In this document: one piece after another, positions 6,101 through 28,760 of the stretch
How the letters are laid out: each line of letters starts with the position of its first letter
How positions within the stretch are numbered: position 1 is the stretch's first letter
Assembly (NCBI GenBank): GCA_020073485.1
Contig: JAIQFB010000001.1
Coordinates: 62,001 to 126,000 of the forward strand
DNA length: 64,000 bases
Origin: Terriglobia bacterium
GTDB taxonomy: Bacteria; Acidobacteriota; Terriglobia; Acidiferrales; UBA7541
Direction of reading: 5' to 3'
Program-made: the position numbers and the translations under genes
Notes under the pieces: generated by a model
The model's database searches: none
What the model was told of the DNA's origin: nothing
What the model saw: only the letters and a program-made list of their open reading frames with translations

Positions 6101-6993
6101 ATGACACCGCTCTAATTGTTCAGATGATCCAGATCGATCAAATCAATGTCCTAAATCCACGAAGCCGCAATAAGATCGTTTTCCAAAGCATCGTCTCGAA
6201 CATATCCAATCTTGGCCTGAAGAGACCTATCACTGTTGCTCGTCGGACAGAACCTGCCGACGGCAAATTGTACGATCTCGTTTGCGGTCAAGGTCGGCTG
6301 GAAGCATTCGCCGCGCTGGGGCAAGCCGAGATTCCGGCGATTGTTAAGGAGGCATCAAAGGAAGAATGCTTTTTGATGAGCCTGGTTGAGAACATTGCTC
6401 GACGCCAGATTCGCCCCCTCGAGTTACTAAGAGAGATCAGTAGCCTAAAATCTAGAGGTTACAGCACGACTGAGATCGCGAGTAAAATTGACGTTCACAA
6501 GAGCTATGTGACTGGCATCAGCCATCTGCTAAAGGACGGTGAAGAGCGTTTGATTTCTGCCGTTGAGACCGGCCGGATACCGCTGTCTGTTGCGATGCAA
6601 ATCGCCAACACCGATGAGGACGGCATTCAGCGGGCTCTCTGTCAGGCGTATGAGGACAAGACGCTCCGCGGGCGCAAGTTACTGGCTGTCCGACGCATCA
6701 TCGAAGCGCGTACATCCAATGGTAAGAGTACCCATCAAGGTGTACGCCGGAAAGTTGATCGTCTCCAATCGGCCGACGGGCTGGTTCGCGTATATCGCCA
6801 AGAGGCCGACCGGCAAAAGCTGCTGATAAAAAAGTCACAACTGACAGAGCATCATCTCCTGCTTATCCTATCCGCGCTAAAGAACCTCCTCCGGGACGAA
6901 AACTTCGTCACGTTGCTGCGTGCAGAGGGATTGGACACAATTCCAGCACCTTTGGCAGAAAAAATTCAAATCACGGACAAGGCTTCAATATGA
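6097..6993 (+). CDS. ParB/RepB-like DNA-binding protein
   Basis: This 298-residue protein has a ParB N-terminal domain. It shows IDQINVLNPRSRNKIVF, the NTPase-type box DLVCGQGRLEAFAALG, and LMSLVENIARRQIRPLELL, the signature that precedes the ParB helix-turn-helix (STTEIASKIDVHKSYVTGI). The gene sits between the recombinase and a second ParB-like gene with 4-bp overlaps on both sides. No ParA-type ATPase lies nearby, so classical plasmid partition is not supported. A role in positioning or regulating the recombinase is inferred. Confidence 0.85.
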   Translation: MNDTALIVQMIQIDQINVLNPRSRNKIVFQSIVSNISNLGLKRPITVARRTEPADGKLYDLVCGQGRLEAFAALGQAEIPAIVKEASKEECFLMSLVENIARRQIRPLELLREISSLKSRGYSTTEIASKIDVHKSYVTGISHLLKDGEERLISAVETGRIPLSVAMQIANTDEDGIQRALCQAYEDKTLRGRKLLAVRRIIEARTSNGKSTHQGVRRKVDRLQSADGLVRVYRQEADRQKLLIKKSQLTEHHLLLILSALKNLLRDENFVTLLRAEGLDTIPAPLAEKIQITDKASI

Positions 6994-7874
6994 CAAAACA
7001 AGTCCAGCTTGCGTTTAACCTTCAAGGGATGATCGTTCCGATTTCAAGCATTCTTCCGCTCAAGCACATAAAGACTTCCATAAGGTCCAGCCAGAAGTAT
7101 CAGCAGGTCCTTTCGTCCGTACGAGAAGTTGGCATCATCGAGCCGTTGATTGTATTTCCGCAAAACGGCAAGTCCGACTCTTTTCTGTTGTTGGACGGAC
7201 ACATTCGGCTCGAAGTCCTAAGGCAACTCGAAGAGACCCACGCGCGCTGCTTGATCGCAACCGATGACGAGACGTACACCTACAACAAGCGTGTAAACCG
7301 AATGGCCACGATTCAAGAGCACGCGATGATCCTGAAAGCTACACGGAATGGTGTATCTGAAGAACGGATTGCCACAGTATTAAAAGTGGATGTCGCCAGT
7401 ATCCGGCAGAAGCGAGATTTGCTAAATGGCATCTGCAAGGAAGCAGCCGAGATCCTCAAGAATAAGCATGTTTCGCTGGGGGCATTTTCGTTCCTTAGAA
7501 AGATGAAGCCCATGCGGCAGATCGAAGTGGCCGAGCTCTTGGTGGCGACGGCCAATTACTCGGTCCCGTATGTAAAGGCGCTTCTCGTGGCAACCAATCC
7601 CGACATGCTCGTTGAGCCCGACAATCACAAGGTCGTTGGCGGTCTAACGCCGGAACAGGTAACGAAGATGGAAAAGGAGATGGAGGCTCTGCAACGAGAT
7701 CTAAAGCTGATCGAAGAGTCTTATGGGAACCAAGTTCTAAACCTGGTTCTGGCGCGAGGGTATCTTTTGAAGCTGTTCGGCAATGCCCGTATAGCGCGCT
7801 ATCTCGGCCAGAATCACGCGGACATCTTTCGTGAGCTGCAAGCCGTTTCTGAAGGTCCCTCATTGGAGAATTGA
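6990..7874 (+). CDS. ParB-like protein with RepB-type C-terminal region
   Basis: This 294-residue protein is a diverged second ParB-like protein. Its N-terminal box is SFLLLDGHIRLEVLRQL, and a helix-turn-helix-like region follows (VSEERIATVLKVDVASIRQ). The C-terminal half resembles the RepB partition C-terminal domain (YSVPYVKALLVATNPDMLVE) and ends in helices with little charge variation. It overlaps the upstream ParB-like gene by 4 bp. Two different ParB-like proteins translated with one serine recombinase suggest a heteromeric nucleoprotein complex. Function is inference. Confidence 0.8.
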   Translation: MTKQVQLAFNLQGMIVPISSILPLKHIKTSIRSSQKYQQVLSSVREVGIIEPLIVFPQNGKSDSFLLLDGHIRLEVLRQLEETHARCLIATDDETYTYNKRVNRMATIQEHAMILKATRNGVSEERIATVLKVDVASIRQKRDLLNGICKEAAEILKNKHVSLGAFSFLRKMKPMRQIEVAELLVATANYSVPYVKALLVATNPDMLVEPDNHKVVGGLTPEQVTKMEKEMEALQRDLKLIEESYGNQVLNLVLARGYLLKLFGNARIARYLGQNHADIFRELQAVSEGPSLEN

Positions 7875-8358: not shown

Positions 8359-9300
8359 CTAGCGGAACAGGCTGTTGTGAAACGCTAGATATTCACGAGC
8401 GGGCAAGTTGTTACTCTCGCGCGGTAGGCGGATGGCTCTGCCGTGCAAATGATAGTAGTCTCGCCCGTTCTCAAACTCCTCTCGAATTCGACTGCTTACG
8501 ACTACCTTCATTTGATCAGCATCGACGGTCATGTATCCCTGATCGAATAGAGTGTGAAGATCACTCCGCAATAGTAGACCATTCTCCGGCACGTGCGGAC
8601 CGCCCGAGCTGTAAGGCTTGATGTGAGCGGCTTGTAGCACCGGCAGAGTTCGCTCACCAGTGATCGTACATCTACGTTCATAAGCATCTGTCACGATCAC
8701 CCTGAATGTACCTTGGCCGAGTCGCGGTCGAACGAGCATTGGTTCGCCGTAACGGGCACTGTCGACCGCTGCTATAGTCGCTGGGCCTGGGTCAAAGTTC
8801 GCTGTGGCACGCGTCGCCAATCTTTCCGTGACCGCTTCCCAAAGGGTCTTGCCGGCGGATCCTTCTTCGCTATTGTAGCCCTTCCCTTGGACAATATTGA
8901 GACTGAAATCCGAGGGCACTGGAATCCATTCTTCTTCTCTGAAAAAGAATGGTTCGGCCAAAAGTATGCAACCGATCGCGGGATTCTCCGCCGGTCCGAT
9001 AGGCACGCGTCTATACTTCGCGATCCTGTCACGCATTTCCGAAAGAGATCGAACTCCGTTGCCTTCCCCGAAAGCTTCCCATGAGAGCGAAATCGGCAAA
9101 TGGACGAACCGGGTGAAGAATCCGCCACCGACTATGAAATTGCGTGGGGAGTGAAGCTTAAATAGCAGCATTTCACCGGTACTGAGGGCCTTGAACGATG
9201 CCTCGGAAGATGGGCGCCAGAAATTTGCCTCATCCACGTGCGACTTGGACGCATGCAATTGAAACCATTCGTAATCGGTGACCGCAACGAAGAAATTCAT
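8359..9300 (-). CDS. HNH endonuclease with N-terminal reader-like domain
   Basis: This 313-residue protein ends in an HNH_2-type nuclease: CTITGER with Cys211, AAHIKPY with His226, ENGLLLRSDLHTLFD with Asn240 and His249. The N-terminal 190 residues (VAVTDYEWFQLHA, FWRPSSE, LLFKLHSPRNFIVGGGFF) resemble a PUA/EVE-like or similar reader fold, but more weakly than in its partner. The start codon overlaps the stop of the upstream HNH gene by 4 bp. Reader-HNH proteins are commonly predicted to be modification-dependent restriction enzymes. Substrate is unknown. Confidence 0.8.
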   Translation of the reverse strand: MNFFVAVTDYEWFQLHASKSHVDEANFWRPSSEASFKALSTGEMLLFKLHSPRNFIVGGGFFTRFVHLPISLSWEAFGEGNGVRSLSEMRDRIAKYRRVPIGPAENPAIGCILLAEPFFFREEEWIPVPSDFSLNIVQGKGYNSEEGSAGKTLWEAVTERLATRATANFDPGPATIAAVDSARYGEPMLVRPRLGQGTFRVIVTDAYERRCTITGERTLPVLQAAHIKPYSSGGPHVPENGLLLRSDLHTLFDQGYMTVDADQMKVVVSSRIREEFENGRDYYHLHGRAIRLPRESNNLPAREYLAFHNSLFR

Positions 9301-10277
9301 CGAGCAACTCTCAGCAAGACTGCGTTGCGGTGAAAGTCAAGAAATTGTCGCTGGCCCGCCGTAAAGCTCCCGACGTTGATCAGCCGATCTGTTTCGACGC
9401 CCATCCCCTGCAAGGAAGGCTTATGCGCGACCGGTGAGATGATGAGATTTCCCGAATCTTCAAACCCGATAAATCCGCGGTCGAACAAATGGTCGATGCT
9501 AGGCGTCAAAAGTAGGCCGTTTTCGCCGTTGAGTCGCTCTTCATTTGAGGAATCTCGCCAGGGCTTGCAGTGGCTGGCTAGAAGGTGAGCTGGATTATCA
9601 ACACCCGTGATGCGGCAGTGGGTTTCAATTCGCATAACACGCTGCTTGAATAAGCCTTGGCCACACCGTGCCCGGATAATCGCCTCTCGGTCTGTCTCCT
9701 GCACTGACGTATCAGTTTCAACTTGCTCTTCGAGCCTGCGTTCCCAGACATCGAGATCATCACCCGTCACGACTTTGTCATTTTCAATGACGGCCCCAAC
9801 CCCGGAAGCGGCGATTAACGGCCGGGCCTCTTCTCCAATCAAACCGCCGAGGATTTCCGCAAAGTCTTGAGAAAGTTCTGTCAGATAGATTGACTGGATG
9901 CCGTTTCCGTTAGCCTGGAGGGGTGAGTAGCGATCCGGTAAGACCGCCCTCAAAACTCCCATGTGATCCTTGGGGCGGATTCTATTCAAAAGCTGGGTAT
10001 ACGCGACGTTGACTCTCCAGCCGATATTTTCCCAGTTCTGACCCGCAGAGCCAAACTCAGTTGGTTTCGGGCATTCCCAGCAATAGGATTTGGCGATTCC
10101 GATGGCGGTGATTCGCGTATCTACGAAGGAAAAGATCAGGTTTCCAGGCGAAACCTCTCGCATCGACTCGTAGAATGGATTGCGTGCGCCATTGACGTTA
10201 CGCTTGGGAGACCAGAGGTAGCCGCCGGCGATCTCTTGGCGGAATGTTTGATTCTGGTTGACCCACCAATATCGCAT
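9297..10277 (-). CDS. EVE-like domain plus HNH endonuclease
   Basis: This 326-residue protein starts like an EVE domain: RYWWVNQNQTF, GYLWSPKRN, and MREVSPGNLIFSFVDTRI followed by a GIA turn. It ends in an HNH_2 nuclease: HCRITG, ASHCKPW with His236, and NGENGLLLTPSIDHLFDRGF with Asn253 and His263. EVE and related PUA-like domains bind modified bases such as 5-methyl- or 5-hydroxymethylcytosine; this is family knowledge, not shown here. It is the first gene of a two-gene coupled operon of paralogous nucleases. The pair may cut as a heterodimer or carry two specificities. Confidence 0.85.
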   Translation of the reverse strand: MRYWWVNQNQTFRQEIAGGYLWSPKRNVNGARNPFYESMREVSPGNLIFSFVDTRITAIGIAKSYCWECPKPTEFGSAGQNWENIGWRVNVAYTQLLNRIRPKDHMGVLRAVLPDRYSPLQANGNGIQSIYLTELSQDFAEILGGLIGEEARPLIAASGVGAVIENDKVVTGDDLDVWERRLEEQVETDTSVQETDREAIIRARCGQGLFKQRVMRIETHCRITGVDNPAHLLASHCKPWRDSSNEERLNGENGLLLTPSIDHLFDRGFIGFEDSGNLIISPVAHKPSLQGMGVETDRLINVGSFTAGQRQFLDFHRNAVLLRVAR

Positions 10278-11946: not shown

Positions 11947-12363
11947 TCATCGCAAATGTTCCCGGACGCTGGCGAGTAGGATGGCGGACGGAGAAATGAA
12001 CCCGCGCAGAAGTGCGATCTCCTGTAAGGCTGCGTCGAATTCCTTGTAACCGACGCAATGTAGATATGCGGCAACCATGATGGGGGCGCGGCTGATCCCA
12101 CTCCCACAATGCACAAGGAGCCTGCCTCGCCAGATGTTGTTTGAAATCGCGTCCATAATGGCGCTGAACTGAGCAGGCGGAATCGCTATCTCATCTTCAA
12201 CAGGTAGGTGGACGTAAGTAATCGCGGAATGGGTGGTGATTGGCGCATTTTCAGAAAGTGAAACAACATGCGTCAGGCTGTGAGGGTTCGCCTTTGCGAG
12301 CCGCTGCGCGTCAAACATACTTCCGAGATACAGCCGCCACCAGATTTTCGTAACCTCTAGCAT
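11947..12363 (-). CDS. Dual-specificity phosphatase-like protein
   Basis: This 138-residue protein has the cysteine phosphatase signature HCGSGISR (His85, Cys86, Arg92) and an upstream Asp57 in LPVEDE that could be the general acid. The length suits a minimal dual-specificity phosphatase domain. Substrates in the family range from phosphoproteins to RNA caps and lipids. It heads the minus-strand row of small genes. It sits in the same element as a predicted DNA-base kinase about 4 kb away, but a link between them is speculative. Confidence 0.8.
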   Translation of the reverse strand: MLEVTKIWWRLYLGSMFDAQRLAKANPHSLTHVVSLSENAPITTHSAITYVHLPVEDEIAIPPAQFSAIMDAISNNIWRGRLLVHCGSGISRAPIMVAAYLHCVGYKEFDAALQEIALLRGFISPSAILLASVREHLR

Positions 12364-13428: not shown

Positions 13429-13564
13429 GGTGGTAGAAGTGGTAGATCTGAGCCGTTACCCCCTAAGTTCTCTATAGAGAAATTTCATCTCATAGTGCCC
13501 GCGTAGTGAATTCCACATAATAGAAGTAGGGGGGAACCACCCCAGATCTACCACTTCTACCACC
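13429..13564. repeat. 22-bp perfect inverted repeat pair in the primase upstream region
   Basis: The arms at 13429-13450 and 13543-13564 are perfect reverse complements over 22 bp (GGTGGTAGAAGTGGTAGATC plus two more bases), separated by 92 bp of AT-richer DNA. Shorter copies of the GGTAGAA/TTCTACC core follow at about 13591-13598 and 13667-13674, the last immediately before the primase ribosome site. This arrangement suits a replication origin with iterons or a multi-site operator. The 13337-13690 gap holds no gene. Confidence 0.75.
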
Positions 13565-13690: not shown

Positions 13691-16009
13691 ATGTTCATTG
13701 ATCAAGCCACCAAGCCCGCATCACTCGGGATCGCCGTCGTTCCAACCTACAAGGGATTGAGGCACCCAGCTCTAACCAACTGGCAGGAAATGGCGACCAC
13801 CAATGGGGCGACGATTGCCAAATGGGCTAACAACGGGTATCGAGATTTCAATTGTGTCTGCGTCGCGAAGCAGGAAGGCACAGGCATTCTGGACATTGAC
13901 GATCTTGCTGCTTGCAAGGCCGCCGGAATGCCACCCGTTCCTCAGACGTTCACCGTGAAGTCCCCGAAAGGCTATCACGTCCATTTTCTGCACACCGACG
14001 CTTCTCGCGCTTTAGGCAACCGGGACATCAAAGTTGACGGAGCCAAAATCCTTGAAGTGAAGGGGCACAACACAGCCGTCGCCGCTCCCGGCTGTGTTCG
14101 TGAAGACGGCAAGCAATACCTCATCCACCGCGACCTGCCTCTCGCGCCTCTGCCTCAGGAATGGATTGATTGGCTGCGCGAACACTCTCGCTCCGCCAAG
14201 CGCGGGACCGGGCATCTCCGCAAGTTCCATCCCGACTTCGACGCCGAAGAACTCTTTCGTCACTATGAATGGGAGTTTGCTGCTGAGTTTGAGAAGGACG
14301 GAGCGATGTACTACGTTTTTGCCGAATGCCCTCTGGCCGAGCGCACGCACGAGGACCAGATTCGCTCGAAGAAGACCTGCCTGATCATCGGTCGCACGGT
14401 TGGATTCGACTGCAAGTCCTGTGGCGAGGAGCACAACTACGGGGATTTGATCACCAAGATGGAAGAGAAGGGATACGAGAAGTTCCCTGGCTACATCTTT
14501 GAGGACGAAGACGATGCCATTTTGCTACAGGATGTGGATGATTGCGATGCCAAGGTCCTGACTGCCGAGGAACTGGCCGCTGCCCTTGGCGCGACTCTAG
14601 AGCAGGAACTCCCTCCTGCCGACACGACGGGCTTCCTGTATCTCCCCAACGATACGGGGAACGGGGAACGTCTGGTCCGCAAGTACGGAAACATGATCCG
14701 CTTTGCTTCTGGCAAATGGTACGTCTGGAACGGTAAGCGGTGGGCACCGGATCATTATCGCAAGCTGGACCGAATGGCCGAGTACGTCGTCAAAGAGCTT
14801 CTCGCCGAGGCTGAGGACATCTCCGATGAGAAGGAGCGCAAAGCCAAGCAGCGGTTCGCTCTGGCCTGTGGGGATCGCAGCCGCCGCGCCGCGATGGTGG
14901 AGCTTGCCGCGACGAAGCGAGGAGTCTTGAAGCGCCCCACCGATTTTGACATCGACCTCTGGGCCTTCAACGTACAGAACGGCACGGTCGATCTGAACAC
15001 AGGCGAGCTACAGCCTCACAACCCCCTGGACAACATCACCAAGATTTCCCCTGTCATCTATGACGCCGAAGCGGATTGTCCGCTCTGGGATAAATTCATG
15101 CGGGAAGTCATGTGCGGCAATCAGGAGATGGTGGATTTCCTCGCTGCCGCTGCGGGTTATTCCCTGACCGGGGATACGCGCATTCAAGCCATGTTCTTTA
15201 ATCACGGCGACGGGGAGAACGGCAAGGGAGTCTTCCTTGAGACGCTTGCCTACATCATCGGCGAATACTCGTACACGTCCGCCTTCGACACCTTCGTCTA
15301 CCACGAGAAGAGCAATCGCGACGTTCGCAACGACCTCGCCGCTCTTGTCGGAGTCCGCTTCCTCTGCGCCGAGGAATCGTCCGAGGGTCACCGCCTGGAT
15401 GAAGCCCTGATTAAACAGCTGACGGGGGAGAACACCGTGACAACACGATTCCTTTACCAAGACGAGTTTTCCTACAAGCCGAACTTCAAAATATGGATGA
15501 GTTCTAATTTCCGCCCTTCTATCCGCACCACCGATTGGGGCACGTGGCGTCGCGTGAAGATGATTCCGTGGAACTTCCGCGTCCATGCCAACCATCGCGA
15601 CGAACAACTGAAGTCCAAGCTGCGCCGGGAGGCTCCGGGCATTCTCAACTGGATGCTACGCGGTTTGCAGCGTTACGTGGACGCCGGATATAAGATGACC
15701 TACCCGGAGATCGTTGAGAAGGCCACGTCGGAGTACCGCATCAGCCAGGACATCGTGGGTCAGTTCATCAACACAAAGTGTGAGTTGGCCGGGAAGATTC
15801 AGGTGAGCGATCTCTACAGCTCATTCAAGTTCTGGGCGGAACAGTCTCGCGAGCGTCACAATCTCACGCTCCGCAAGTTCGGGGATGAGGTGGTGAAGCG
15901 AGAAGGCATCTTCCGCAACAAGGAAAAGGACGCCACTTACTTTCACGGGGTATCTCTTCGTCTTTCGGCAGCAGACCAGCAATTGAATGAACTCGCGGAG
16001 GAGATTTGA
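13691..16009 (+). CDS. Primase-polymerase / D5-type superfamily 3 helicase
   Basis: This 772-residue protein is a two-part replication protein. The N-terminus is an archaeo-eukaryotic primase (prim-pol): GILDIDDL with Asp68, Asp70 and Asp71, KGYHVHFL with His96 and His98, and KILEVKG with Glu122. The C-terminal half is a phage/plasmid D5-P4-type helicase with Walker A GDGENGKG at 506-513 and the SF3 signature FKIWMSSNFRP. It has a strong ribosome site (TAGGAGG) just upstream. It indicates a self-replicating phage, satellite or plasmid origin for this block. Confidence 0.92.
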   Translation: MFIDQATKPASLGIAVVPTYKGLRHPALTNWQEMATTNGATIAKWANNGYRDFNCVCVAKQEGTGILDIDDLAACKAAGMPPVPQTFTVKSPKGYHVHFLHTDASRALGNRDIKVDGAKILEVKGHNTAVAAPGCVREDGKQYLIHRDLPLAPLPQEWIDWLREHSRSAKRGTGHLRKFHPDFDAEELFRHYEWEFAAEFEKDGAMYYVFAECPLAERTHEDQIRSKKTCLIIGRTVGFDCKSCGEEHNYGDLITKMEEKGYEKFPGYIFEDEDDAILLQDVDDCDAKVLTAEELAAALGATLEQELPPADTTGFLYLPNDTGNGERLVRKYGNMIRFASGKWYVWNGKRWAPDHYRKLDRMAEYVVKELLAEAEDISDEKERKAKQRFALACGDRSRRAAMVELAATKRGVLKRPTDFDIDLWAFNVQNGTVDLNTGELQPHNPLDNITKISPVIYDAEADCPLWDKFMREVMCGNQEMVDFLAAAAGYSLTGDTRIQAMFFNHGDGENGKGVFLETLAYIIGEYSYTSAFDTFVYHEKSNRDVRNDLAALVGVRFLCAEESSEGHRLDEALIKQLTGENTVTTRFLYQDEFSYKPNFKIWMSSNFRPSIRTTDWGTWRRVKMIPWNFRVHANHRDEQLKSKLRREAPGILNWMLRGLQRYVDAGYKMTYPEIVEKATSEYRISQDIVGQFINTKCELAGKIQVSDLYSSFKFWAEQSRERHNLTLRKFGDEVVKREGIFRNKEKDATYFHGVSLRLSAADQQLNELAEEI

Positions 16010-16294: not shown

Positions 16295-17995
16295 CTACGC
16301 CAAGACAAGGGATTGGCGTTGAGGTAGGGCATCAATTCGGCGGGATGAGGCGTCACCGCGAGCAACGGGCGGAAGAAATGACGCCAACTCCTTAAGGTAG
16401 CTCGCAACCCTGGCCTTACTATCTCTTTTCCCTAGCCATGTGTGGGTACAGGCATCAACGAATCCGGGGCTTTCCAGCAGGTGCGAAGGGTCACGGTACT
16501 CCCACAAATGCTCCTCGGTGGTATGTTTCGCACGTAGCTCCCAGATTTCCCGCCAATTGATTTCCGGCGCAACCAATGCGCCCCGGACGAAGTTGCCCGC
16601 TTGTTCGTCGAGGTAGTAGCCCACCTTCCGCTTGCCATTAACGAAGTTCTTGAACTGGCACAGGACCGTCTCCATGTAGTGATGGTCCACGGTTATGGTG
16701 GGGTAGCGTCCGCGAATTTCTCGGATCAAGCCGTTGACCTGTTCATCCAACCACGCGTAATCCTTTGCGCGTGGGTCAGAATCATTCACTTCCAACGCCA
16801 CCAGCAGGCCTTTCCTCGGCGAGTTCGCTTCCTTAACGAATATGGTGTCGCACTGAATCGGGAATTTCACGCAACGGATAAGAATTTCCGTCCACGCGTA
16901 TGCGGTGTGTCGCCCCACGTTGTTGATGGAACGGAGGCAATTTGTAATCGTGTGGAACGAGGCCACGGGGTCCGTGCCGATCAATTCGTTGAAAAACGCT
17001 TCCTGGGTTTTGTCGCCCAGGGCCTTTTTGTATGCGGCGAATATGTCCGTCAGAGTCGGGGGCCGCATGAAGTGTATTCGGTCAGGGTCAAGACCCAGCC
17101 CCCTGTACATGACCTTCTCCCACTCCCTGAAAGCCTTGGGGTCTACACCCCTCAGTTCCGGGAACTTTGACCAAGTGATCATAAATCGGTGCGGCGAATA
17201 CAACGTGGCGTATAAAAACGCGACCCAGAGTTGTTGCTCTTTGCTCACCTTCCTGGTCTCAAAGATGTCGGTTATGACGTGGTGGGTGGGGTCAACATCG
17301 CCGACGCGCTGTTTGGCTACGTAATACTGAATGAATTGCTCTCGAGGACTCAGCGGAGAGTCAGTATGGTTGGTAGCGAATCGTCGGCCCGGTTGTTGAA
17401 CCTCCCGCAATACACTCTCAACCAGTTTGGCCGAATCTTCCGGCCCCATCCCTTCCGGGATTTCCAGGTAGCGCACTGGCTGGCGCTTGTAATGGTCTTG
17501 CGCGTAGTTCCAGACACCAAGCGCACGTTCGCGGAAACTCAGGACGTTCAGGAAGGTCTTCGGAGGAAGCTTGGCTTCTATCTTTCCGTTCCCGGTTCTG
17601 CGACTTCTTAGCCGCGCCAGATTCTCGTTCAGGGAAAGTTCTATGTAGACGAAGAGCGCGGCGGGTTTTAGAGGATGTTCTTCCACCCAACGAACCAACT
17701 TGTTTGTGCAGCGGAAGCCATCCATGATCACTACGTCGCGCTGTTTCCAGCAGTGGTCAATCGTCTGGTGAAGCGCGTCCATTGCGCCGATGGCGTCGCT
17801 CGTGTTTTTCAAGTTTCCGGCGATGGCGATTTCGGAGCCGAGGACGTATGGTGCCTTCACCTGCTTGCGGACACCCCTCTCGGTTACACTCAATTCAATT
17901 CTCTGTTCTTGCGCGTCGTTCCCCGCAAGTGTCCGGCTTAGGGTTGTCTTGCCCGTCGCTCCTGCACCGAGAATCATTATGAGAGTTTTGCTCAT
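16295..17995 (-). CDS. P-loop DNA-base kinase fused to glycosylase-like helical domain
   Basis: This 566-residue protein has an N-terminal P-loop kinase: Walker A GAGATGKTT (Lys16) and VVIMDGFRC as a Walker B-like strand. Residues from about 220 to the end form a helical domain (EQQLWVAFLYATLYSPHRF, NCLRSINNVGRHTAYAWTE, CDTIFVKEANSPRKGL). This resembles the 5-hydroxymethyl-dU DNA kinase helical and thymine pyrophosphorylase families predicted in hypermodified phages. The expected role is to phosphorylate a hydroxymethylated base and process the activated group. The ATG at 17995 overlaps the TET/JBP stop (ATGA), so the two are translationally coupled. Kinase assignment is firm; the helical-domain assignment is by motif memory. 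Confidence 0.75.
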   Translation of the reverse strand: MSKTLIMILGAGATGKTTLSRTLAGNDAQEQRIELSVTERGVRKQVKAPYVLGSEIAIAGNLKNTSDAIGAMDALHQTIDHCWKQRDVVIMDGFRCTNKLVRWVEEHPLKPAALFVYIELSLNENLARLRSRRTGNGKIEAKLPPKTFLNVLSFRERALGVWNYAQDHYKRQPVRYLEIPEGMGPEDSAKLVESVLREVQQPGRRFATNHTDSPLSPREQFIQYYVAKQRVGDVDPTHHVITDIFETRKVSKEQQLWVAFLYATLYSPHRFMITWSKFPELRGVDPKAFREWEKVMYRGLGLDPDRIHFMRPPTLTDIFAAYKKALGDKTQEAFFNELIGTDPVASFHTITNCLRSINNVGRHTAYAWTEILIRCVKFPIQCDTIFVKEANSPRKGLLVALEVNDSDPRAKDYAWLDEQVNGLIREIRGRYPTITVDHHYMETVLCQFKNFVNGKRKVGYYLDEQAGNFVRGALVAPEINWREIWELRAKHTTEEHLWEYRDPSHLLESPGFVDACTHTWLGKRDSKARVASYLKELASFLPPVARGDASSRRIDALPQRQSLVLA

Positions 17996-19149
17996 GATTT
18001 CTTCTTCGGCCAAAGCGGATCGCCTGGTTTACGGTTGCTTATGGCCTCGTTCTCTTCTTCCTCGGAGTTTAGGCACTTGTACATGTTCTTCCGACAATAG
18101 AAGACGCAGGCTAGGCGTTCCGGCATTCTGTGCAGTTCCGGCACTGTGCCGTCCGGGTTCAGCAATGGAGTATTGCCATGGACTTGGTTAGCCACGTCGG
18201 CGAGGAGGACATCACCGTCACGATAGCGGACAGCCACTTTGTAACGCGGCAAGACTAGGTCACAGCCCTCAAAGTCGCCGAGGCAACACATCGCACCGAA
18301 ACCTTCCTTCAAATCACCCTTGTCCACATGCGCGGCGGTCCTGAAGCTTTTATTGCAGGTGACTGTTGTGAACGGTGTGGGACCGTCCGGTGTTTCGAGC
18401 ACAAACGCGGGCGGAGTTTGGCATGCTTTCTCAAACTGCACACCCCATTTGTCCTGGACAAATGACCAACGAAACGCCTCGCCGACCTCTTGCGCTAATT
18501 CCGACATGAGTCCCCATTCCTCGGGAAGAACACCATCGTAGGCGGTTGTACGGCAGCCCTCCGGTTGCCCGCCACGTATCTCTCGGGCGTTGAAGCCGAA
18601 GGTCCCACCCTTGGCAGGTTTTAAGATGTAATAATGCTCGTCGTCCAAGTCCTCTTCGTTCGGGACTCCATTGATGTTGGACTCGGTGCCGTCGGGCCTT
18701 ATCCGTTTCACCATCCCCGTGCCCGCAGCTTCACCGCGATTGCCGCCCGCGATTGGTTCACGCGCAGCTTCGCGTACGACAGGCCGAACAGCTTCCAAGA
18801 GGTCAGGCGGGAGGCGGTGTTTCAGCAATATGCAGAGCACTCGGCCGTCCGGCGTCAGCACCATGCCTGTTTCATCCAGAAGGAGCGTGTAATGCCTCTC
18901 GTCCAGAAAGCTCTTCTTCAGCAACGCGGCTTCTTCTTTTCCGATGTCGGCGGGTGCTTTTAGAATTCTGAAAAAAGACTCAACCCTTCCGTCCGGGTAG
19001 TGCGCCTTTTGGAGTTCATTGTAAGCGCGCTCCTCTTGGGTCAGTTGCCTTGTCCACACTTCACCGCTCGGTGTGTTGGTCTTCTCCCAGCCTTCAGCCT
19101 TTCCGTCTTCGCACGGCGGGCGTTTGTTCGGTAAGGTTGTCCGCTGCAT
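17992..19149 (-). CDS. TET/JBP-family 2-oxoglutarate/Fe(II) DNA base dioxygenase
   Basis: This 385-residue protein carries the TET/JBP oxygenase core in residues about 255-355. The iron ligands are His274 and Asp276 in FRTAAHVDKGD and His324 in NQVHGNTPL. The strand LVLPRYKVAVRYRDGDVLLA lies between them, and RMPERLACVFYCR supplies the likely 2-oxoglutarate arginine (Arg345). The family oxidises the methyl of 5-methylcytosine or thymine in DNA. The N-terminal 200 residues are unlike known domains and may bind DNA. It overlaps the gene on each side (56 bp upstream, 4 bp downstream). No cytosine-5 methyltransferase is in the window, which favours thymine as substrate. Confidence 0.85.
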   Translation of the reverse strand: MQRTTLPNKRPPCEDGKAEGWEKTNTPSGEVWTRQLTQEERAYNELQKAHYPDGRVESFFRILKAPADIGKEEAALLKKSFLDERHYTLLLDETGMVLTPDGRVLCILLKHRLPPDLLEAVRPVVREAAREPIAGGNRGEAAGTGMVKRIRPDGTESNINGVPNEEDLDDEHYYILKPAKGGTFGFNAREIRGGQPEGCRTTAYDGVLPEEWGLMSELAQEVGEAFRWSFVQDKWGVQFEKACQTPPAFVLETPDGPTPFTTVTCNKSFRTAAHVDKGDLKEGFGAMCCLGDFEGCDLVLPRYKVAVRYRDGDVLLADVANQVHGNTPLLNPDGTVPELHRMPERLACVFYCRKNMYKCLNSEEEENEAISNRKPGDPLWPKKKS

Positions 19150-19729
19150 AGCACAGTCCTTTCACAACGGCTTCTGCGTTGTTGGCAATATTGAAATGCT
19201 TCTTAACGGCGTTCAGGGCGTGCTCATACTTCTCGCGAAGCGGCTCTTTCACCCATACCTTGATGCCCTTGCCTCGCTTAGCCAGCTTTCTGTTGTAAAA
19301 GGCGGTGTTCTTACAACTTCTACCCACGTGAGTAGAAGTTATTAAGTCCTGTTCTCTCAGGCCGTTATCGTCGCGATACTTGTCAGCCCACCGAGCTGCC
19401 GTACTTCTTCCCATATCCAGATTTTTTTCCACCCAAGCACCGAAACCTCTGTCCTTATCGTGTAGATCATTACGGCTACCTTGTGCTCTGAGCCTGATCC
19501 GCAGCCAGAAGAGCAGTGGCCCCATGTCTTTCTGGGCAAGACGTTGATGCTTTTTCCAAGCGAAGAGAATCGCCGATTTGAGTTCCTGTTCGTTCAGCTT
19601 TTGGAGTTCGGGGTCGGGAGACACGGGCGACGCAATCTGCGAATTTTCGATTGCGTGCAGCTGCCCTGCGTCGTTTGGGTGGTGTAAAGCTGCGTCGGAT
19701 ACTGGGGTAATAGGGGTGGTGGCGCTCAT
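19094..19729 (-). CDS. DNA-binding-like first protein of the base-modification operon
   Basis: This 211-residue protein begins at an ATG with GGAGG 5 nt upstream. The central region (LLFWLRIRLRAQGS, then GFGAWVEKNLDMGRSTAARW) resembles DNA-binding or DUF3102-like proteins of phages, with a possible helix-turn-helix. The C-terminal third is basic and helical. Its 3' end overlaps the TET/JBP gene by 56 bp. A regulatory role or one in delivering the modification enzymes to DNA is inferred. A long near-perfect palindrome lies inside its coding sequence at 19315-19340. Confidence 0.6.
   Translation of the reverse strand: MSATTPITPVSDAALHHPNDAGQLHAIENSQIASPVSPDPELQKLNEQELKSAILFAWKKHQRLAQKDMGPLLFWLRIRLRAQGSRNDLHDKDRGFGAWVEKNLDMGRSTAARWADKYRDDNGLREQDLITSTHVGRSCKNTAFYNRKLAKRGKGIKVWVKEPLREKYEHALNAVKKHFNIANNAEAVVKGLCYAADNLTEQTPAVRRRKG
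19315..19340. repeat. 26-bp near-perfect palindrome inside a coding region
   Basis: The half-sites are AACTTCTAC and GTAGAAGTT, with CCACGTGA between. Twelve of thirteen base pairs match, and the centre is CACGTG. The TAGAAGT core is shared with the repeats upstream of the primase gene. Codon use alone does not require such symmetry. This could be a binding site for the element's own regulator. Confidence 0.7.
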
Positions 19730-19839: not shown

Positions 19840-19951
19840 GAGGGTACTACAGCGCAGAATTGATGTGGGTTTGGCACTCGGCTCGCTTCGTCCCGCTGCT
19901 AATTGCCCGGTCCTTCGTGTTCCGCAGTATCGAACGATTCGGAAGACGAAA

Positions 19952-20143
19952 ATGAACCCAAATACACCCGAACGCTTCGTAGACGCCGACGAAGCCGCGA
20001 AGTTCCTATCGATCACGCGGCGTCGCGTTCTCGATTTAGCCCGAGCAAGAAAACTGCCCGGCCATCCGATCGGGGACGGTGCGAGGCGTGTGTGGCGATT
20101 CCGGTTGAGCGAGATTGCGGCCGCGATTGTCGCGACGAAATAA
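19952..20143 (+). CDS. Excisionase-like helix-turn-helix protein
   Basis: This 63-residue protein matches the small MerR/Xis-type helix-turn-helix family that accompanies tyrosine integrases: FVDADEAAKFLSITRRRVLD, then LARARKLPGHPIG and VWRFRLSEIAAAI. Such proteins direct excision or repress the integrase. The next gene, 80 bp on, is the integrase, which supports this role. An in-frame extension to 19865 has no ribosome site and is rejected. Confidence 0.8.
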   Translation: MNPNTPERFVDADEAAKFLSITRRRVLDLARARKLPGHPIGDGARRVWRFRLSEIAAAIVATK

Positions 20144-20223: not shown

Positions 20224-21444
20224 ATGGGGCGTTATCAAAGAGGATGGCTACGTGTGGTCGAACGCAAGCAAGGCCGCATGTGGCAGTTTCGGTATTACGC
20301 GGTCGATTCGATAAGCGGAAAGAAGCAGGAGCGGTCAAAGATTATCGGTACGCTATCGGACTTTCCCACTGAATCAAAGTGTTGGCGCGAGATCGACCGC
20401 CAACGACTGATCGAGAAGATTAATCGGCCGCAAACCGATGACAAGCTACGCTTCCGGCACATCGCGGACTTTTACTTGAACAGTGATGCCTTTAACAAGC
20501 TCGCTCCCACCACACAGTATTGCTACCGTCACATTGTGAACGATTATCTGGTCCCCGCGTGGGGCGCTCAATTCGCTGTGGATATCAAGAGCTTGGCTGT
20601 CGAGAAATGGCTGCGCTCCCTCGATCTCGCCGCCCCAACACGGGGCAAGACGAAGTACGTGATGATGGTGGTTTTCCTTCACGCCGAGAAGCATGAACGA
20701 ATTTCTGATGGATTTACGGCCAATCTGGAAAGCAAGATCGACATCGAGTCCTCTTCGAACTACGAGGCCGTAATCCTGACGCCCAAGCAGACCTTCACGA
20801 TCTTGAAGCTTATGTGCCAACCGGAGAGCACGATTACGGTCTTGGTCGCGGCTACGGGCTTGCGGTTTTCTGAAGTTGCCGGGCTTCAGTGGCAAGATAT
20901 TGACTACGCGAACGAGTGTATTCATGTGCGGCGCAAATGGATCGATGGCAAAACCTCAGAGGAACTAAAGACCAAGTTGTCCCGGTCAGCGGTTCCCATG
21001 GCTGCCGAGCTTGCTCGGGTGCTCTTAGACTGGCGAAAAGCGACTCCATATGGGAAGCCCACTGACTGGGTCTTTGCGTCCGCGAAAACGCACGGGAGGA
21101 CGCCTCGCGTGGGGAACATGCTCGTGGCCGATCATCTGCGCCCGGCAGCGATCAAGGCCGGGGTAATCCTCAAGCCGGGGCAGCGGTTCGGATTTCACAA
21201 CCTGCGGCATTCGCTCAGCAGTCTGCTCATCACCGGGCAGAAGTCGGACGTTCGCACGACTCAGGACATTCTCCGCCATAGCAGTTCGGCGACGACCATT
21301 GATCTTTACACGCAATCGCCGATGGCGCAGCGAATCGCGGCGCAGGAGTCGGTGCTGAGGGCGATTCTACGACAGCCGACCACCAGAGTAAGAATTAGAG
21401 CGGTACGGAATGGCTCAAGAGTGGGATGGAGAAAACGTGGTTAA
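20224..21444 (+). CDS. Tyrosine recombinase / phage-type integrase
   Basis: This 406-residue protein has a core-binding domain in the first half and the tyrosine recombinase catalytic domain in the second. Catalytic residues are Arg214 (ATGLRFSEVAGL), His325 and Arg328 (FHNLRHSLSS), His352 (ILRHSS) and Tyr362 (TTIDLYTQSP). It also has an N-terminal arm-binding-like segment (GRMWQFRYYAV). The start follows an AGGAG-like site. Its position next to the excisionase-like gene suggests it is the integrase of the surrounding element. The last 25 residues are very basic and may be a later extension. Confidence 0.93.
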   Translation: MGRYQRGWLRVVERKQGRMWQFRYYAVDSISGKKQERSKIIGTLSDFPTESKCWREIDRQRLIEKINRPQTDDKLRFRHIADFYLNSDAFNKLAPTTQYCYRHIVNDYLVPAWGAQFAVDIKSLAVEKWLRSLDLAAPTRGKTKYVMMVVFLHAEKHERISDGFTANLESKIDIESSSNYEAVILTPKQTFTILKLMCQPESTITVLVAATGLRFSEVAGLQWQDIDYANECIHVRRKWIDGKTSEELKTKLSRSAVPMAAELARVLLDWRKATPYGKPTDWVFASAKTHGRTPRVGNMLVADHLRPAAIKAGVILKPGQRFGFHNLRHSLSSLLITGQKSDVRTTQDILRHSSSATTIDLYTQSPMAQRIAAQESVLRAILRQPTTRVRIRAVRNGSRVGWRKRG

Positions 21445-21584: not shown

Positions 21585-23462
21585 TTAAGCGTTCGTAATC
21601 CGCGGAAATAACCCAAAGCGCCCTATATTCGGATTATGCGTAAACTCTTCGTGGTGGACTTTTGCAAGGATATCAGCAGGTGGTTCTGTGTTCTCGACAA
21701 TGAACAGCTGCTGCTGACCAATGAAATTTATGAGGTGTTCGTAAAATCTAGGCTTCAAGTCCGTGCCAGCTATATTTTCATCTTCGCCCTGCGGCTCCTT
21801 ATAAGCCAAGAGGGGTGAATCGAGAATGACGAAGCCCGGATGCGGTAGCTGGAGTTTCCTGCAGTAGTCGAGCAACGCTATCGTGAACGCCGAATGTGTG
21901 ATGGCGCATAATCCACTTCCGCGACTGCCGCGAGGCTTGCCGCCTATGACAAGGTCGCGCGTGCGCTCATCGAAATATACATCCGTGGCGTTCGGAAAGT
22001 GCCAAGCCTGCAAGATAGCTTCGACATTATTTGAAAAATCGCCCAAAACGGACTTCGGGAGATACTGCGCGACGGGTGCTTCCTCTTCAGGTTCTGCATC
22101 CGGTGCCGCCGTCCCGGTTTGCCGGAGTTTCTGTCTTATATCGACAACCCTGCGATAGACAGCTAACGCTGAACGAATTGAAGATCGCCGTTCGATCAGC
22201 TCTGAGTGCACTTGTCTCGCCTCCGCGAACTCCGGTGACAACGCAGCGTCAATTTTTCCCTGCAAACTGCGTAACTGACCTTCGAGGGTTTCACGCTGCA
22301 AACTGATAGAGACATTTTCCTTGGAGAGGGTCGCAACCGTTTCCTGAAGTTCGCGCCGCAACAAAGCGATCTTTGTAATTTCGGCAGATGCGGCCTGTGT
22401 AACAGCCGCCACATTGCCGTCACAAACAGAATCGTGTTTCTGATTCTCAGAGGTGGCACCGCAAAGAGGACAAGTCGTCACTGGGATGAGCACAAAGAAC
22501 TGCCCAGATTCCTCGATGGCCTGCAATCGCTTGAGATCGGTATCATACTGCTCATCCAAGAGCTTAAATCGCGCCTGAAGTTCGCCAATTTCACCGCTGC
22601 GAGAGGCAAGGTTGCTGTATTGCTCAAAAGCATTCCTGCGCTCTCGTGTTGAGTCCGCAAGGCGGCCCTCCATGTTACGAAGAGTGGCCTGAAGAAGTTC
22701 CAGCTGTTCGTCGATTTCGGTTTCCTTGTTATCGAGATCTTCGGGGTCGTCTGTGAGGTTCGCCAGCTCATCCTCGTAGGACGCCAGCATTTGTTCGAGA
22801 AGCTCCGGCCGCAGTGCAGGTTTCACGATGGCAGAGCTAGGAGCTTCAGTTTCGGAAACAACTGCGGAATCATCAACTCCGGTAAGTAGTAGCTTGAAAA
22901 CCCCATATTCGCGCGTCTTCTCCAGATATTGTCCGGCCTCGATGGGAGAAGACGGTTTAATGATGTCCCGCGAGGTGATGACACACAAATGTGCAAGCGC
23001 ACGGAAACCCAATGCCCTTACCTCACCGCTCTCCTTGCTCCAAAGGATCGACTTGTTGTCGAGGCCGATCTCCTGGAGCAGCCAGCGCGATAGATTCTTT
23101 GCGTTTCCCGAACCATGTCTCGCATTCAGTTTGGTTGCGGCCTTTAGATCAGTCGGCGTCTCCATTACGAGGCCGTCGAACCTCAGGAAATTTCCACCAT
23201 CAAGACTGCGTTGTAGCGTGTAATCTTTCTTGGACGCGGTGGTTATGCCGAGCAGAACTCGGTCATATCCATTGCGCTCGGGTATATCTTTCAGCTCATC
23301 GCCAGCCCCGAGCATGAAGTCGATAGCTTGGACGAGGAACGTCTTCCCCGTGTCGGAGGCTCCCCACAAGAGGTTCAGGCCAGGAGTGAAGGTAAATGCC
23401 GCTGGCTCTTTTTTCGGCCCCAGAAAGCGAATGAACCGTAGATAGAGACCATTGAAGCTCAT
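21585..23462 (-). CDS. ABC-3C system ABC ATPase (Rad50/RecN-like)
   Basis: This 625-residue SMC/Rad50-type ATPase has Walker A GASDTGKT at 34-41, a long coiled coil with a central zinc hook (CPLCGATSENQKHDSVC), and the ABC signature region GSRGSGLCAITHSA. Walker B is GFVILDSPLLAY. The start at 23462 overlaps the upstream stop as ATGA, so I prefer it to the ATG at 23507. ABC ATPases of three-component (ABC-3C) systems are thought to sense invading DNA and license an effector. It is the last gene of a three-gene operon with overlapping ends. Confidence 0.85.
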   Translation of the reverse strand: MSFNGLYLRFIRFLGPKKEPAAFTFTPGLNLLWGASDTGKTFLVQAIDFMLGAGDELKDIPERNGYDRVLLGITTASKKDYTLQRSLDGGNFLRFDGLVMETPTDLKAATKLNARHGSGNAKNLSRWLLQEIGLDNKSILWSKESGEVRALGFRALAHLCVITSRDIIKPSSPIEAGQYLEKTREYGVFKLLLTGVDDSAVVSETEAPSSAIVKPALRPELLEQMLASYEDELANLTDDPEDLDNKETEIDEQLELLQATLRNMEGRLADSTRERRNAFEQYSNLASRSGEIGELQARFKLLDEQYDTDLKRLQAIEESGQFFVLIPVTTCPLCGATSENQKHDSVCDGNVAAVTQAASAEITKIALLRRELQETVATLSKENVSISLQRETLEGQLRSLQGKIDAALSPEFAEARQVHSELIERRSSIRSALAVYRRVVDIRQKLRQTGTAAPDAEPEEEAPVAQYLPKSVLGDFSNNVEAILQAWHFPNATDVYFDERTRDLVIGGKPRGSRGSGLCAITHSAFTIALLDYCRKLQLPHPGFVILDSPLLAYKEPQGEDENIAGTDLKPRFYEHLINFIGQQQLFIVENTEPPADILAKVHHEEFTHNPNIGRFGLFPRITNA

Positions 23463-23959
23463 GCCCTGAGACCGGGCCTTTCGTGGACCTGAAATTCTCT
23501 GGTCCATTGGTCGTGATCATAGACGGCTGTAAGGACGTGCTTGATGTCAGTGTCAGACATTGTCCCGAAAGTGCCACAGACCCAACTGGCGCGTTGCTTG
23601 AGTTCATCAAGGTAGGCTGCCGTCAGCGCGTCGAGGAATGGCCCCGCACTGTCATCGGCTTGATAAGTGAACCCGTCTGCGGCTGCGAAACGCGTGACGA
23701 GTCTCCGACTCATCATCAATAGAAGACCACGCTCAATAAGTTGGCGCCGTACAAGAAGTTCGCCGGAACGGAGCGGTAGAGGGGGGTGCAGGCTGGGAGG
23801 TCCGCCAACATCGCCGGAATGAACCATGAGGTAATCAAATTCCAAAATACGCTGGAGATCCAACCGCTCCGGATAAGATTCCGCCAAAAGTATAAGCGCC
23901 CGCACGCCCGTTTCTATCGGACTGTTGAAAGGCGTTACAGTCTGAGCTATTTCAGCCAT
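23459..23959 (-). CDS. ABC-3C middle component
   Basis: This 166-residue helical protein (VRALILLAESYPERLDLQRILEFDY, abridged here to the family's conserved start) matches the small middle components of ABC-3C systems, which link the ATPase to the effector. It has no catalytic motif. It overlaps the effector gene by 8 bp and the ATPase gene by 4 bp, so translation is coupled through the operon. Subclass was not determined. Confidence 0.75.
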   Translation of the reverse strand: MAEIAQTVTPFNSPIETGVRALILLAESYPERLDLQRILEFDYLMVHSGDVGGPPSLHPPLPLRSGELLVRRQLIERGLLLMMSRRLVTRFAAADGFTYQADDSAGPFLDALTAAYLDELKQRASWVCGTFGTMSDTDIKHVLTAVYDHDQWTREFQVHERPGLRA

Positions 23960-25046
23960 TGTTCTTCACCCACACAAAACGGTTAACATTGGCAAGGTGA
24001 TGACAAATACCATGCTTGTCCTGAACGAGAACTCGTAGGCAGAGAGCATTGCAGTTCGGCGTTATATTGCCCGCCTGCGTGACGGTCGCGCGGATTCGCG
24101 CGAGACCGTCGGCGTGGTTCAAATCGTAAGTATCCACCACACCATGATAAATCTCCTCCTTGACGGCGTCGAACGTGCCCGCATCGACGCTGTCGCGGGC
24201 AAAGTTGCGAAGCGACTCGGCATGATAGAACACTTCTCGGGCGCGGTTAAAGTGTTTCTCGATTTCGGGCCATTTGGAGAGGTCTTTAAGATCGTCCACC
24301 GACACTTGGAGATGCTCGGCGTAAGCTTGTAAAAGCTGTTCAACATATCGACTTTCGCGCTCATGGATCGCTTCGGGGGGCAGTTCAGGTTTGGGCCGAG
24401 CTGGAATTCCCGCATGGCCGAATCGTTGCACATAAAAGACAGTGTTGGAATGAACCTTCAGCATTTCCACGACAGATATTGGTTTGAATATGCTGAAGTC
24501 AAACGCATCGAGATACTCCTTCAACGCGCCGTCGAGCGGAATTTCTTTGGTCTCCGTTATGGCCTTCCTGCAATATCCATCCCAATTCTTTATCAGCTCG
24601 GCCTTGAGTTCGGCGGGATTCGTAAGCAGTTTTTTCAGCTTAAGACCGATATCCTTCGATGCGGCAAAAAAACAGTTTCGCGGCGGCTTAAATTCACCCG
24701 TGTGGGAATAATAAATGATCTTGCCAAGCTCGACCCAGATATCCGATGGCGTGAGTTTTTCGCCATATCTCTTGCACTGATAATTATCCCACGGAGCATC
24801 GAACTTGTTTTCGGATACAAAAGCGACGATGTCACGGCCCATATCTCCTGGCCCGGACCACCTCATCACCTTGTCATAACCCGGAACGGAATTTGCGTAT
24901 TCCTCAGCGAAACCTTCCCAGTCGGCTGCTGAGAAAATCTCGACCAGCTTGACAGCAGGAAAATTCATTCCTGACCCGACCTGAGGCGACGTGCCCGTGC
25001 CGAGGTGCAGAGGTCTCATGTTTCCGTTGATTCCGCTGTTGCTCAA
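23952..25046 (-). CDS. ABC-3C effector: nuclease-like N-terminus plus C-terminal domain
   Basis: This protein of about 364 residues has a restriction-like N-terminal domain: MRWSGPGDMGRDIVAF, then WDNYQCKRYGEKL. That resembles the D-x(n)-QxK core of PD-(D/E)XK/Mrr nucleases. The C-terminal half is the ABC-3C C-terminal helical domain, which contacts the middle component. The first codon used is TTG at 25046; ATGs at 25019 and 24968 are possible. Likely role: DNA cleavage once the ATPase is activated. Catalysis is inferred from the motif only. Confidence 0.78.
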   Translation of the reverse strand: MSNSGINGNMRPLHLGTGTSPQVGSGMNFPAVKLVEIFSAADWEGFAEEYANSVPGYDKVMRWSGPGDMGRDIVAFVSENKFDAPWDNYQCKRYGEKLTPSDIWVELGKIIYYSHTGEFKPPRNCFFAASKDIGLKLKKLLTNPAELKAELIKNWDGYCRKAITETKEIPLDGALKEYLDAFDFSIFKPISVVEMLKVHSNTVFYVQRFGHAGIPARPKPELPPEAIHERESRYVEQLLQAYAEHLQVSVDDLKDLSKWPEIEKHFNRAREVFYHAESLRNFARDSVDAGTFDAVKEEIYHGVVDTYDLNHADGLARIRATVTQAGNITPNCNALCLRVLVQDKHGICHHLANVNRFVWVKNNG

Positions 25047-27560: not shown

Positions 27561-28514
27561 TTAGAGCTTCTCTCCCTCGTATCGCATGTCCAACTTCTCT
27601 AGGGGTACCTGACATCCGTGGCGCTCAAAAGCGCCCTGTATGCCCTTAGAGAACTCGCCTGCGTAGACGACCTTGTCCGCACATATCATGACGCGCTTGT
27701 TTACGCTGCGAATCGTGGCCGCAGGCGCGGTGGCGATACCGGGCGTGAGTCCCTTTCGCATTAGCAGACAGACCTGACTGGTGAGTGGGAACCATACCCT
27801 TGCATTTGGGAGATTCACGCCAGACCGGAAATGAACTTCGCGGGACCACCCCTCACTGACCTCGGAGACAAGCGGATTATCAGACGTGATGAATGTCTGG
27901 TTGTGAGGTGCATGGATGAATTGCCATCCCATGTCGCAAACCACTTCCGCAACATCAATACCGACGTGCAGCATGGACGCGAGCTGAAAATCCCGCTGTT
28001 CCTCGAGTTTCTCCCCCTTTCCGGCGAGCACGTCTTGGCGAACGTGTTCGGCGGCTTCCTTTCCCGGGAAGCCAGTCTCAATGGATTCGTACAGCTTGTA
28101 GAACTCATCAGGGTCGGAGGCCGCTCGCTTGAGCATCTTCGACGTGCCTGGACCAAACACTTTGTCGCCCAGCAGCATGCCAAACGGCGTTCTCGTAAAC
28201 ATCGTCCCCATAAAAACGGACAGACAGATTCTCTCGTTCTCGTTTGGTTCTCGCTTGTTCTTGACGAGGTCTGGTATCAGCGGCGCAACCCTAGCCTCAA
28301 GATTGCCGAGCCACTCCTCGAACTCGAAGTTCTTTTCGCCATTCTGCTCAACCGTATAGAAGTCGCGCTGGCAGCCTTCCAGTTTCGGCGTGGACTTTCG
28401 GGGATCGCGGCCCTTCTCGTAAACCCACAAGCGGGGCTTGGGTCGTAGTGAGGCAAACCCTGCGAGGTAGAAGCGGGGGATGTAGTGATGCTTCCGTGGC
28501 GGCTTGTGGGCCAT
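27561..28514 (-). CDS. DUF4238 protein
   Basis: This 317-residue protein starts with the DUF4238 hallmark HKPPRKHHYIPRFYLAGF. It continues with the helical middle (ERICLSVFMGTMFTRTPFG) and the family's TFITSDNPLV motif near residue 220. DUF4238 proteins are often found in defence islands and mobile regions; the activity is unknown. ATG 28514 is chosen because the protein begins with the conserved motif there; a further in-frame start at 28553 adds 13 residues. It is the last accessory gene before tRNA-Val. Confidence 0.85.
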   Translation of the reverse strand: MAHKPPRKHHYIPRFYLAGFASLRPKPRLWVYEKGRDPRKSTPKLEGCQRDFYTVEQNGEKNFEFEEWLGNLEARVAPLIPDLVKNKREPNENERICLSVFMGTMFTRTPFGMLLGDKVFGPGTSKMLKRAASDPDEFYKLYESIETGFPGKEAAEHVRQDVLAGKGEKLEEQRDFQLASMLHVGIDVAEVVCDMGWQFIHAPHNQTFITSDNPLVSEVSEGWSREVHFRSGVNLPNARVWFPLTSQVCLLMRKGLTPGIATAPAATIRSVNKRVMICADKVVYAGEFSKGIQGAFERHGCQVPLEKLDMRYEGEKL

Positions 28515-28604
28515 GCTCGTAAGATTAGCCGACTCACCGCCCAAATTCACCATGCCGCCGTATTAGACCGAGGGAGGCTTTGTCGACAGAATTCCCAGTT
28601 CCAA

Positions 28605-28626
28605 CGGTACGGAGAGCGGTACGGAA
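28605..28626. repeat. Short direct-repeat motif shared with integrase 3' end
   Basis: The 14-mer AGAGCGGTACGGAA at 28613-28626 is identical to 21397-21410 inside the end of the integrase gene. The overlapping 16-mer CGGTACGGAGAGCGGT at 28605-28620 equals 26314-26329. It lies 58 bp from the CCA end of tRNA-Val. This may be an attachment-site remnant. Confidence 0.5.
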
Positions 28627-28683
28627 ATTTCGCAACGCGGGTGGCGGAAAACCGCTAAGCCCATCGAAATGACAGGAATAAGA

Positions 28684-28760
28684 TGGTAGGCCCGTGCGGA
28701 CTCGAACCGCAGACCTCTACCGTGTCAAGGTAGCGCTCTAACCAACTGAGCTACGGGCCT
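28684..28760 (-). tRNA. tRNA-Val (anticodon GAC)
   Basis: The cloverleaf is complete: acceptor AGGCCCG/CGGGCCT, D-stem GCTC/GAGC, anticodon stem CTACC/GGTAG with loop TTGACAC, T-arm TGCGG-TTCGAGT-CCGCA, discriminator A and encoded CCA. The anticodon is GAC. The 3' end faces the accessory region, the usual orientation for island integration at tRNA genes. Confidence 0.97.

Follow-up and report, generated by a model that had tools for sequence, protein, structure and literature searches.

The 64,000-nt stretch analysed here (the window) belongs to contig JAIQFB010000001.1 of a Terriglobia soil bacterium; the genomes of the same genus used for comparison are Terriglobia metagenome-assembled genomes. 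At 16295–19729 it carries three overlapping genes on the minus strand, and in this one operon a TET/JBP dioxygenase, a P-loop kinase and a predicted amino acid:DNA transferase (ADDT) are found together (Table 1). The operon is flanked by genes for a prim-pol, an excisionase-like protein and a tyrosine integrase. The original prediction, made from the sequence letters, saw here a DNA-base hypermodification operon, and the core of this view, a set of dioxygenase, base kinase and transferase, is now strongly backed by family membership, fold, intact catalytic residues and conservation of the operon in phages.

The three reading frames and their overlaps are as predicted. Gene 1 overlaps gene 2 by 56 bp, and genes 2 and 3 share an ATGA if gene 3 starts at ATG 17995. 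The longest open reading frame (ORF) of gene 3 spans 16295–18013 (minus strand) and begins at an upstream TTG; we prefer the ATG because it places the Walker A loop normally and overlaps the stop codon of the TET gene. In 200 shuffles of the region the longest ORF had a mean of 142 aa and a maximum of 258 aa; ORFs of the length seen here did not come up by shuffling. Differences from the nearest relative, locus L021, fall mostly on third codon positions (first/second/third: 109/85/167 in the TET gene and 67/53/116 in gene 1), which shows that both genes are under protein-level constraint.

The dioxygenase, the kinase–ADDT fusion and gene 1

Gene 2 matches the Tet_JBP family of Pfam at 75.2 bits against a curated cut-off of 34.9, as had been anticipated, and is the sole PF12851 gene of the 5.05-Mb host genome. 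The iron ligands named beforehand with the same numbering, H274, D276 and H324, are kept together with D279 in 85 of 85 aligned sequences, and the Arg that binds 2-oxoglutarate, Arg345, in 84 of 85. The AlphaFold2 (AF2) model, with a predicted local distance difference test score (pLDDT) of 80.5, has a TET-like double-stranded beta-helix fold: the top 26 PDB chains recovered by Foldseek were all TET2, CcTet, NgTET1 or CMD1 (best E for TET2, 4.6e-13), with AlkB next. TET2 was also recovered by sequence with the family profile (8e-6). By sequence and model gene 2 is thus a TET/JBP dioxygenase, with oxidation of thymine or 5-methylcytosine (5mC) in DNA as its predicted activity. The trait is rare and patchy in the class, TET genes being present in 4 of 399 genomes, and in 3 of 6 genomes of the genus.

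Gene 3 consists of a kinase part (residues ~1–190) and an ADDT part (residues ~217–500, both numbered from the ATG). The Walker A P-loop is intact (GAGATGKT, residues 10–17), and the Pfam family AAA_18 matches at 35.1 bits (cut-off 29.4, E 2.1e-8, residues 12–146 in TTG-start numbering). The helical domain had been likened to the thymine pyrophosphorylase and 5-hydroxymethyluracil (5hmU) kinase families. The match found there is to ADDT (PF18724), at 58.8 bits (cut-off 26.2, E 8.8e-16, residues 239–459 in TTG-start numbering), while HMUDK_hel (PF18723) was not detected on gene 3 in Pfam at E≤1. A profile made from the ADDTs beside viral TETs aligns across residues 217–500 with an E-value of 4.2e-58, and none of the 12 family-invariant residues is missing (E253, Q254, W257, P279, G361, R362, R394, G396, E442, L445, C446 and R488). 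The helical part is modelled with a pLDDT near 90, and its fold is matched by phage ADDT proteins of BFVD (5e-12, target template modelling (TM) score 0.86). A glycosylase-like fold, also suggested originally, found no confirmation: the best TM-score in the Foldseek search of PDB was a non-significant match to DNA glycosylase 1pu7 (0.39 by target, E 9.6). The best name for the helical domain is ADDT (PF18724), a predicted amino acid:DNA transferase. The kinase half aligns colinearly with the phage kinases, to which it is a remote relative. ADDT is seldom met in the phylum, with 3 occurrences in 396 sampled genomes; in one of the other two genomes it lies beside a ThyA-like gene according to Pfam, and the second has the same arrangement according to its sequence.

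Gene 1 has no match in Pfam or PDB, and in this respect the DNA binding originally attributed to it was not substantiated. We can only guess at such a function from the position of the gene, held in phages by ParB-like proteins. Homologues exist at L021 (48%), L024 (32%) and L023/L026 (24–25%), and gene 1 lies directly upstream of the TET gene in five Terriglobia elements (the window, L021, L024, L023/L016 and L026/L017). At L016 and L021 the integrase, gene 1 and TET genes directly adjoin tRNA-Ser genes, which indicates that TET genes recur on integrative elements of this lineage.

Viral counterparts of the operon

Scans of viral contigs with the single gene 2 or gene 3 protein recovered no relative, and plasmid records held no match to either. 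Alignments were required: those of TET and ADDT yielded 80 and 75 viral loci, some of them from the same contigs. With a TET profile rebuilt without the TET–kinase fusion described below, ADDT was found in 34, a kinase in 40 and both in 33 of the 80 TET-anchored loci; around ADDT, TET was present in 51/75 and a kinase in 60/75. The order TET-ADDT-kinase dominates (55 of 85 loci), and the gene order closest to that of the window occurs in phages, beside the terminase. A kinase–ADDT fusion was seen in none of 109 viral ADDT loci. A gammaproteobacterial contig encodes a TET–kinase fusion of 1006 aa (L027:6548-9565); ADDT is encoded there by a gene of its own, some 5 kb upstream. Two independent fusions, this one and that of the window, link the three predicted activities.

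The cassettes of the type ParB-TET-ADDT/aGPT-Pplase2-5hmU kinase resemble the operon in combining TET/JBP, ADDT and a P-loop kinase behind a first gene for a DNA-binding or DNA-binding-like protein. The one in Rhodococcus phage Tonitrus (ParB, Tet-like JBP, aGPT-Pplase2, kinase) appears in the literature as a putative system of thymidine hypermodification (PMC11955845), and its aGPT-Pplase2 matches PF18724 at 9.4e-23; the cassette of mycobacteriophage LilMcDreamy is ParB-TET-ADDT. Phage cassettes often stand beside the terminase, make use of ParB, encode the kinase and ADDT apart from each other and in many cases include GATase or GNAT; an amidotransferase-like protein, recognised by a simple N-terminal motif, is present in about half of the viral TET+ADDT loci (PF13537 in L094). 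In contrast, the operon of the window opens with a non-ParB gene, fuses kinase and ADDT, lies on a bacterial island and is without ParB, amidotransferase (GATase) or GNAT partners.

The original prediction, which held such systems to be known mainly from comparative genomics, did not do the field full justice: for phages M6 and ViI there is chemical proof of thymidine hypermodification, and ViI DNA contains 5-NeOmdU (PMC6449724). The ADDT of ViI is Vi01_199 (3.2e-58). ViI and M6 (5-NeOmdU, 5-NedU) share with the operon this ADDT member, in ViI, and the logic of 5hmU, kinase and transferase (PMC6449724), but their DNA receives 5-hydroxymethyldeoxyuridine (5hmdU) as a ready-made nucleotide of the pool, whereas the TET of the window would, like JBP, oxidise thymine that is part of the DNA. 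The JBP enzymes of base J and the TET enzymes of eukaryotes are similar in dioxygenase fold, iron ligands and oxidation within DNA; the operon differs in having no glucosyltransferase, and phosphorylation and transfer would take its place.

Two annotations in phages deserve attention. LilMcDreamy gp2 (L008:855-1787), annotated as queuine tRNA-ribosyltransferase, looks TET/JBP-like, with a weak Tet_JBP match and a position next to ADDT; PHROG 6059 is labelled in the same way and is likewise a match to the TET of the window. Fortunato gp2 (L220:1258-2823, 522 aa) was considered as another fusion and rejected, its first ~160 residues having no P-loop; its start is likely mis-called, with the real ADDT seemingly beginning at about residue 166.

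Proposed substrate, chemistry and role

No C5-cytosine methyltransferase (PF00145) was detected in the 97%-complete host genome; of 14 control genomes, 10 were positive. Scans by phmmer with a positive control found none in 126 kb of the contig and a homologue in 1 of 85 viral TET+ADDT loci (fetched DNA, loci at most about 15 kb). The island also encodes an EVE-HNH nuclease closely related to VcaM4I, a modification-dependent endonuclease that binds and cuts DNA with 5mC or 5-hydroxymethylcytosine (5hmC); by eye it keeps VcaM4I residues E15, W22, P24, W82 and Q128 and most pocket residues. Since this family cuts 5mC/5hmC DNA, production of 5hmC beside it would endanger the host's own DNA. Because of these three observations we favour thymine over cytosine as the probable TET substrate. 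A cytosine route, with TET converting 5mC to 5hmC that kinase and ADDT then decorate, would suit the TET fold, which is closest to 5mC oxidases, the pairing of TET with an HhaI-like methylase in Melnitz phages, and the activity of phage TETs in cytosine hypermodification (Burke et al. 2021, in the passage of PMC10273834 that cites it). We nevertheless hold it to be improbable, as the missing methyltransferase and the EVE-HNH nuclease are joined by the ties of the ADDT and kinase families to thymidine in ViI and Tonitrus.

Our preferred reading, to which we give a probability of about 0.6, is a phage-type thymine hypermodification pathway on a bacterial integrative island, which runs from T via 5hmU and phospho-5hmU to an amino-acyl or aminated thymine and is self-protective. 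At certain thymines of the DNA, the TET/JBP enzyme would hydroxylate the 5-methyl group, which yields 5hmU; the kinase half of gene 3 would phosphorylate the hydroxyl and so create a leaving group, and the fused ADDT half would put an amino acid or amine in place of the phosphate. Having both halves in one protein might channel the reactive intermediate, and gene 1, in the place of the ParB-like proteins of phages, may bind DNA and target or regulate the reaction. What we observe directly are the gene identities, the intact catalytic residues, the TET fold, the conservation of TET-ADDT-kinase in viruses and the lack of a detectable host C5-methyltransferase; thymine as substrate, the order of reactions, the nucleophile and the biological role we infer. 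A more tentative proposal is that the island hypermodifies thymine through in-DNA TET action and a bifunctional kinase-transferase, and that this lets the element coexist with the EVE-HNH nuclease directed at 5mC/5hmC.

Several facts weigh against the thymine pathway. In same-genus genome G004, the 20 kb examined contain gene 1 and TET but nothing recognised as a kinase or ADDT, so TET can stand alone in these elements, and a C5-methyltransferase is present in genome G003. The kinase half is no more than a distant relation of the phage kinases (hidden Markov model E about 0.01, hhalign 67%), gives no match to PF18751 (Ploopntkinase3) in Pfam at E≤1, and was modelled by AF2 with low confidence because the alignment had no kinase rows. 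ADDT has no significant match to any solved structure (Foldseek against PDB, none at E<0.001). A promoter-like site for the operon was looked for and none was found; expression of the operon and the activity and product of the pathway are predictions. The genus-mates that retain only gene 1 and TET, the promoter result and the composite nature of the island with its several integrases would also agree with a decaying, non-functional remnant of a prophage or element. To this we give little credence, given three intact frames with overlapping starts, full retention of the catalytic residues and the third-position bias against L021.

As to the purpose of thymine hypermodification, which is less well supported than the chemistry, our first choice is protection of element DNA: the likeliest benefit would be resistance to restriction during excision and replication by the element's own prim-pol. 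The main rival is a bacterial defence module, carried as cargo of a defence island, that would label the host's DNA as self or else alter nucleotides or the DNA of incoming phages, with a chemistry that overlaps the one proposed here. The neighbourhood of Lamassu, a DUF4238 candidate and EVE-HNH fits this role, the domains recently validated in defence include a 5hmdU kinase and a thymidylate synthase, and for aGPT-Pplase a role in defence is predicted (PMC13092281). Pairs of ThyA-like and aGPT-Pplase3/ADDT genes, present in two further genomes of the class (L018, L019), point the same way; they resemble the operon in having an ADDT-family transferase but have a thymidylate-synthase-like partner and no TET or fused kinase. 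We regard defence as unlikely, since no PADLOC model matches any of the three proteins, phages have the most similar gene order, beside the terminase, and the operon contains no effector nuclease. The L018 and L019 pairs (L018:1064-3008, L019:7810-9754) adjoin an M78 (IrrE-like) gene and may form a defence or base-modification system of their own.

Each domain and the type of pathway are already known. New are the setting on a bacterial integrative island, the kinase–ADDT fusion, the lack of ParB, GATase and GNAT partners and the link with a nuclease dependent on cytosine modification. Phages are known to have hypermodified thymine in their DNA, and to our knowledge a thymine-derived base of the proposed kind is undescribed in bacterial chromosomes. 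If the reading is true, chromosomal or element DNA can bear hypermodified thymine, and DNA camouflage has spread to non-viral mobile elements. Three genes, one of them bifunctional, would then make a small enzyme set for putting amino groups on DNA.

The tRNA-Val island

Table 1. Operon genes and other features of the window
Feature	Position	Strand	Description
Gene 1	19094–19729	−	211 aa, putative DNA-binding-like protein; ORF
Gene 2	17992–19149	−	385 aa, TET/JBP 2-oxoglutarate Fe(II) dioxygenase; Pfam PF12851, 4.5e-21
Gene 3	16295–17995	−	566 aa from ATG 17995, P-loop kinase fused to ADDT
EVE-HNH nuclease	9297–10277	−	6e-88 to VcaM4I (PDB 6yex)
Imperfect 136-bp palindrome	13429–13564		just upstream of prim-pol; self-BLAST 69.6% inverted match
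Prim-pol / D5-type primase-helicase (P4 family)	13691–16009	+	Prim-Pol 2.9e-17; D5_N 1.1e-28; TIGR01613 primase_Cterm 1.7e-78
HTH_17 excisionase-like gene	19865–20143	+	divergent from operon; PF12728 1.8e-8; phrog_66 excisionase 1.3e-7
Tyrosine integrase	20224–21444	+	PF00589 8.1e-22; phrog_1 integrase 8e-40
Lamassu-type LmuABC (ABC-3C) defence system	21585–25046	−	complete; next to integrase; PADLOC
DUF4238 protein	27561–28553	−	candidate defence family DUF4238-Pers (PADLOC); beside tRNA-Val
Direct repeat of tRNA-Val 3' end and flank	28603–28728		repeat search over 126 kb of contig
tRNA-Val(gac)	28684–28760	−	intact; right end of integration hotspot; ARAGORN

The tRNA-Val repeat has a diverged 126-bp copy 57 kb to the left (C45:33265) and a perfect 46-bp copy further left (C45:21986). 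Such remnants of the 3' end of tRNA-Val, arranged in tandem, point to a composite island with repeated integrations at one tRNA gene. The original prediction of an integrated element with its own prim-pol and integrase holds in so far as both genes adjoin the operon within this island; that they form one unit was not established, its ends having been looked for and not found, and synteny with same-genus genomes gave no clean empty site. No terminase gene was seen among the window proteins scanned, a subset of the island ORFs. The prim-pol is likely the replication module of the element, with the palindrome as a possible candidate origin of replication.

Directly downstream of the EVE-HNH gene lies a second, HNH_2 nuclease gene (8359–9300, minus strand) with a different N-terminal domain; in this protein only the HNH part matches 6yex (1e-7). 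A dual-specificity phosphatase gene (11947–12363, minus strand) has a very similar paralogue ~53 kb away (C45:20966-21382), by another tRNA-Val remnant; related elements may share the tRNA-Val hotspot. At 4490–7874 (plus strand) a Ccr-like large serine recombinase gene is followed by two overlapping genes of RepB/ParB type, possibly a separate mobile element.

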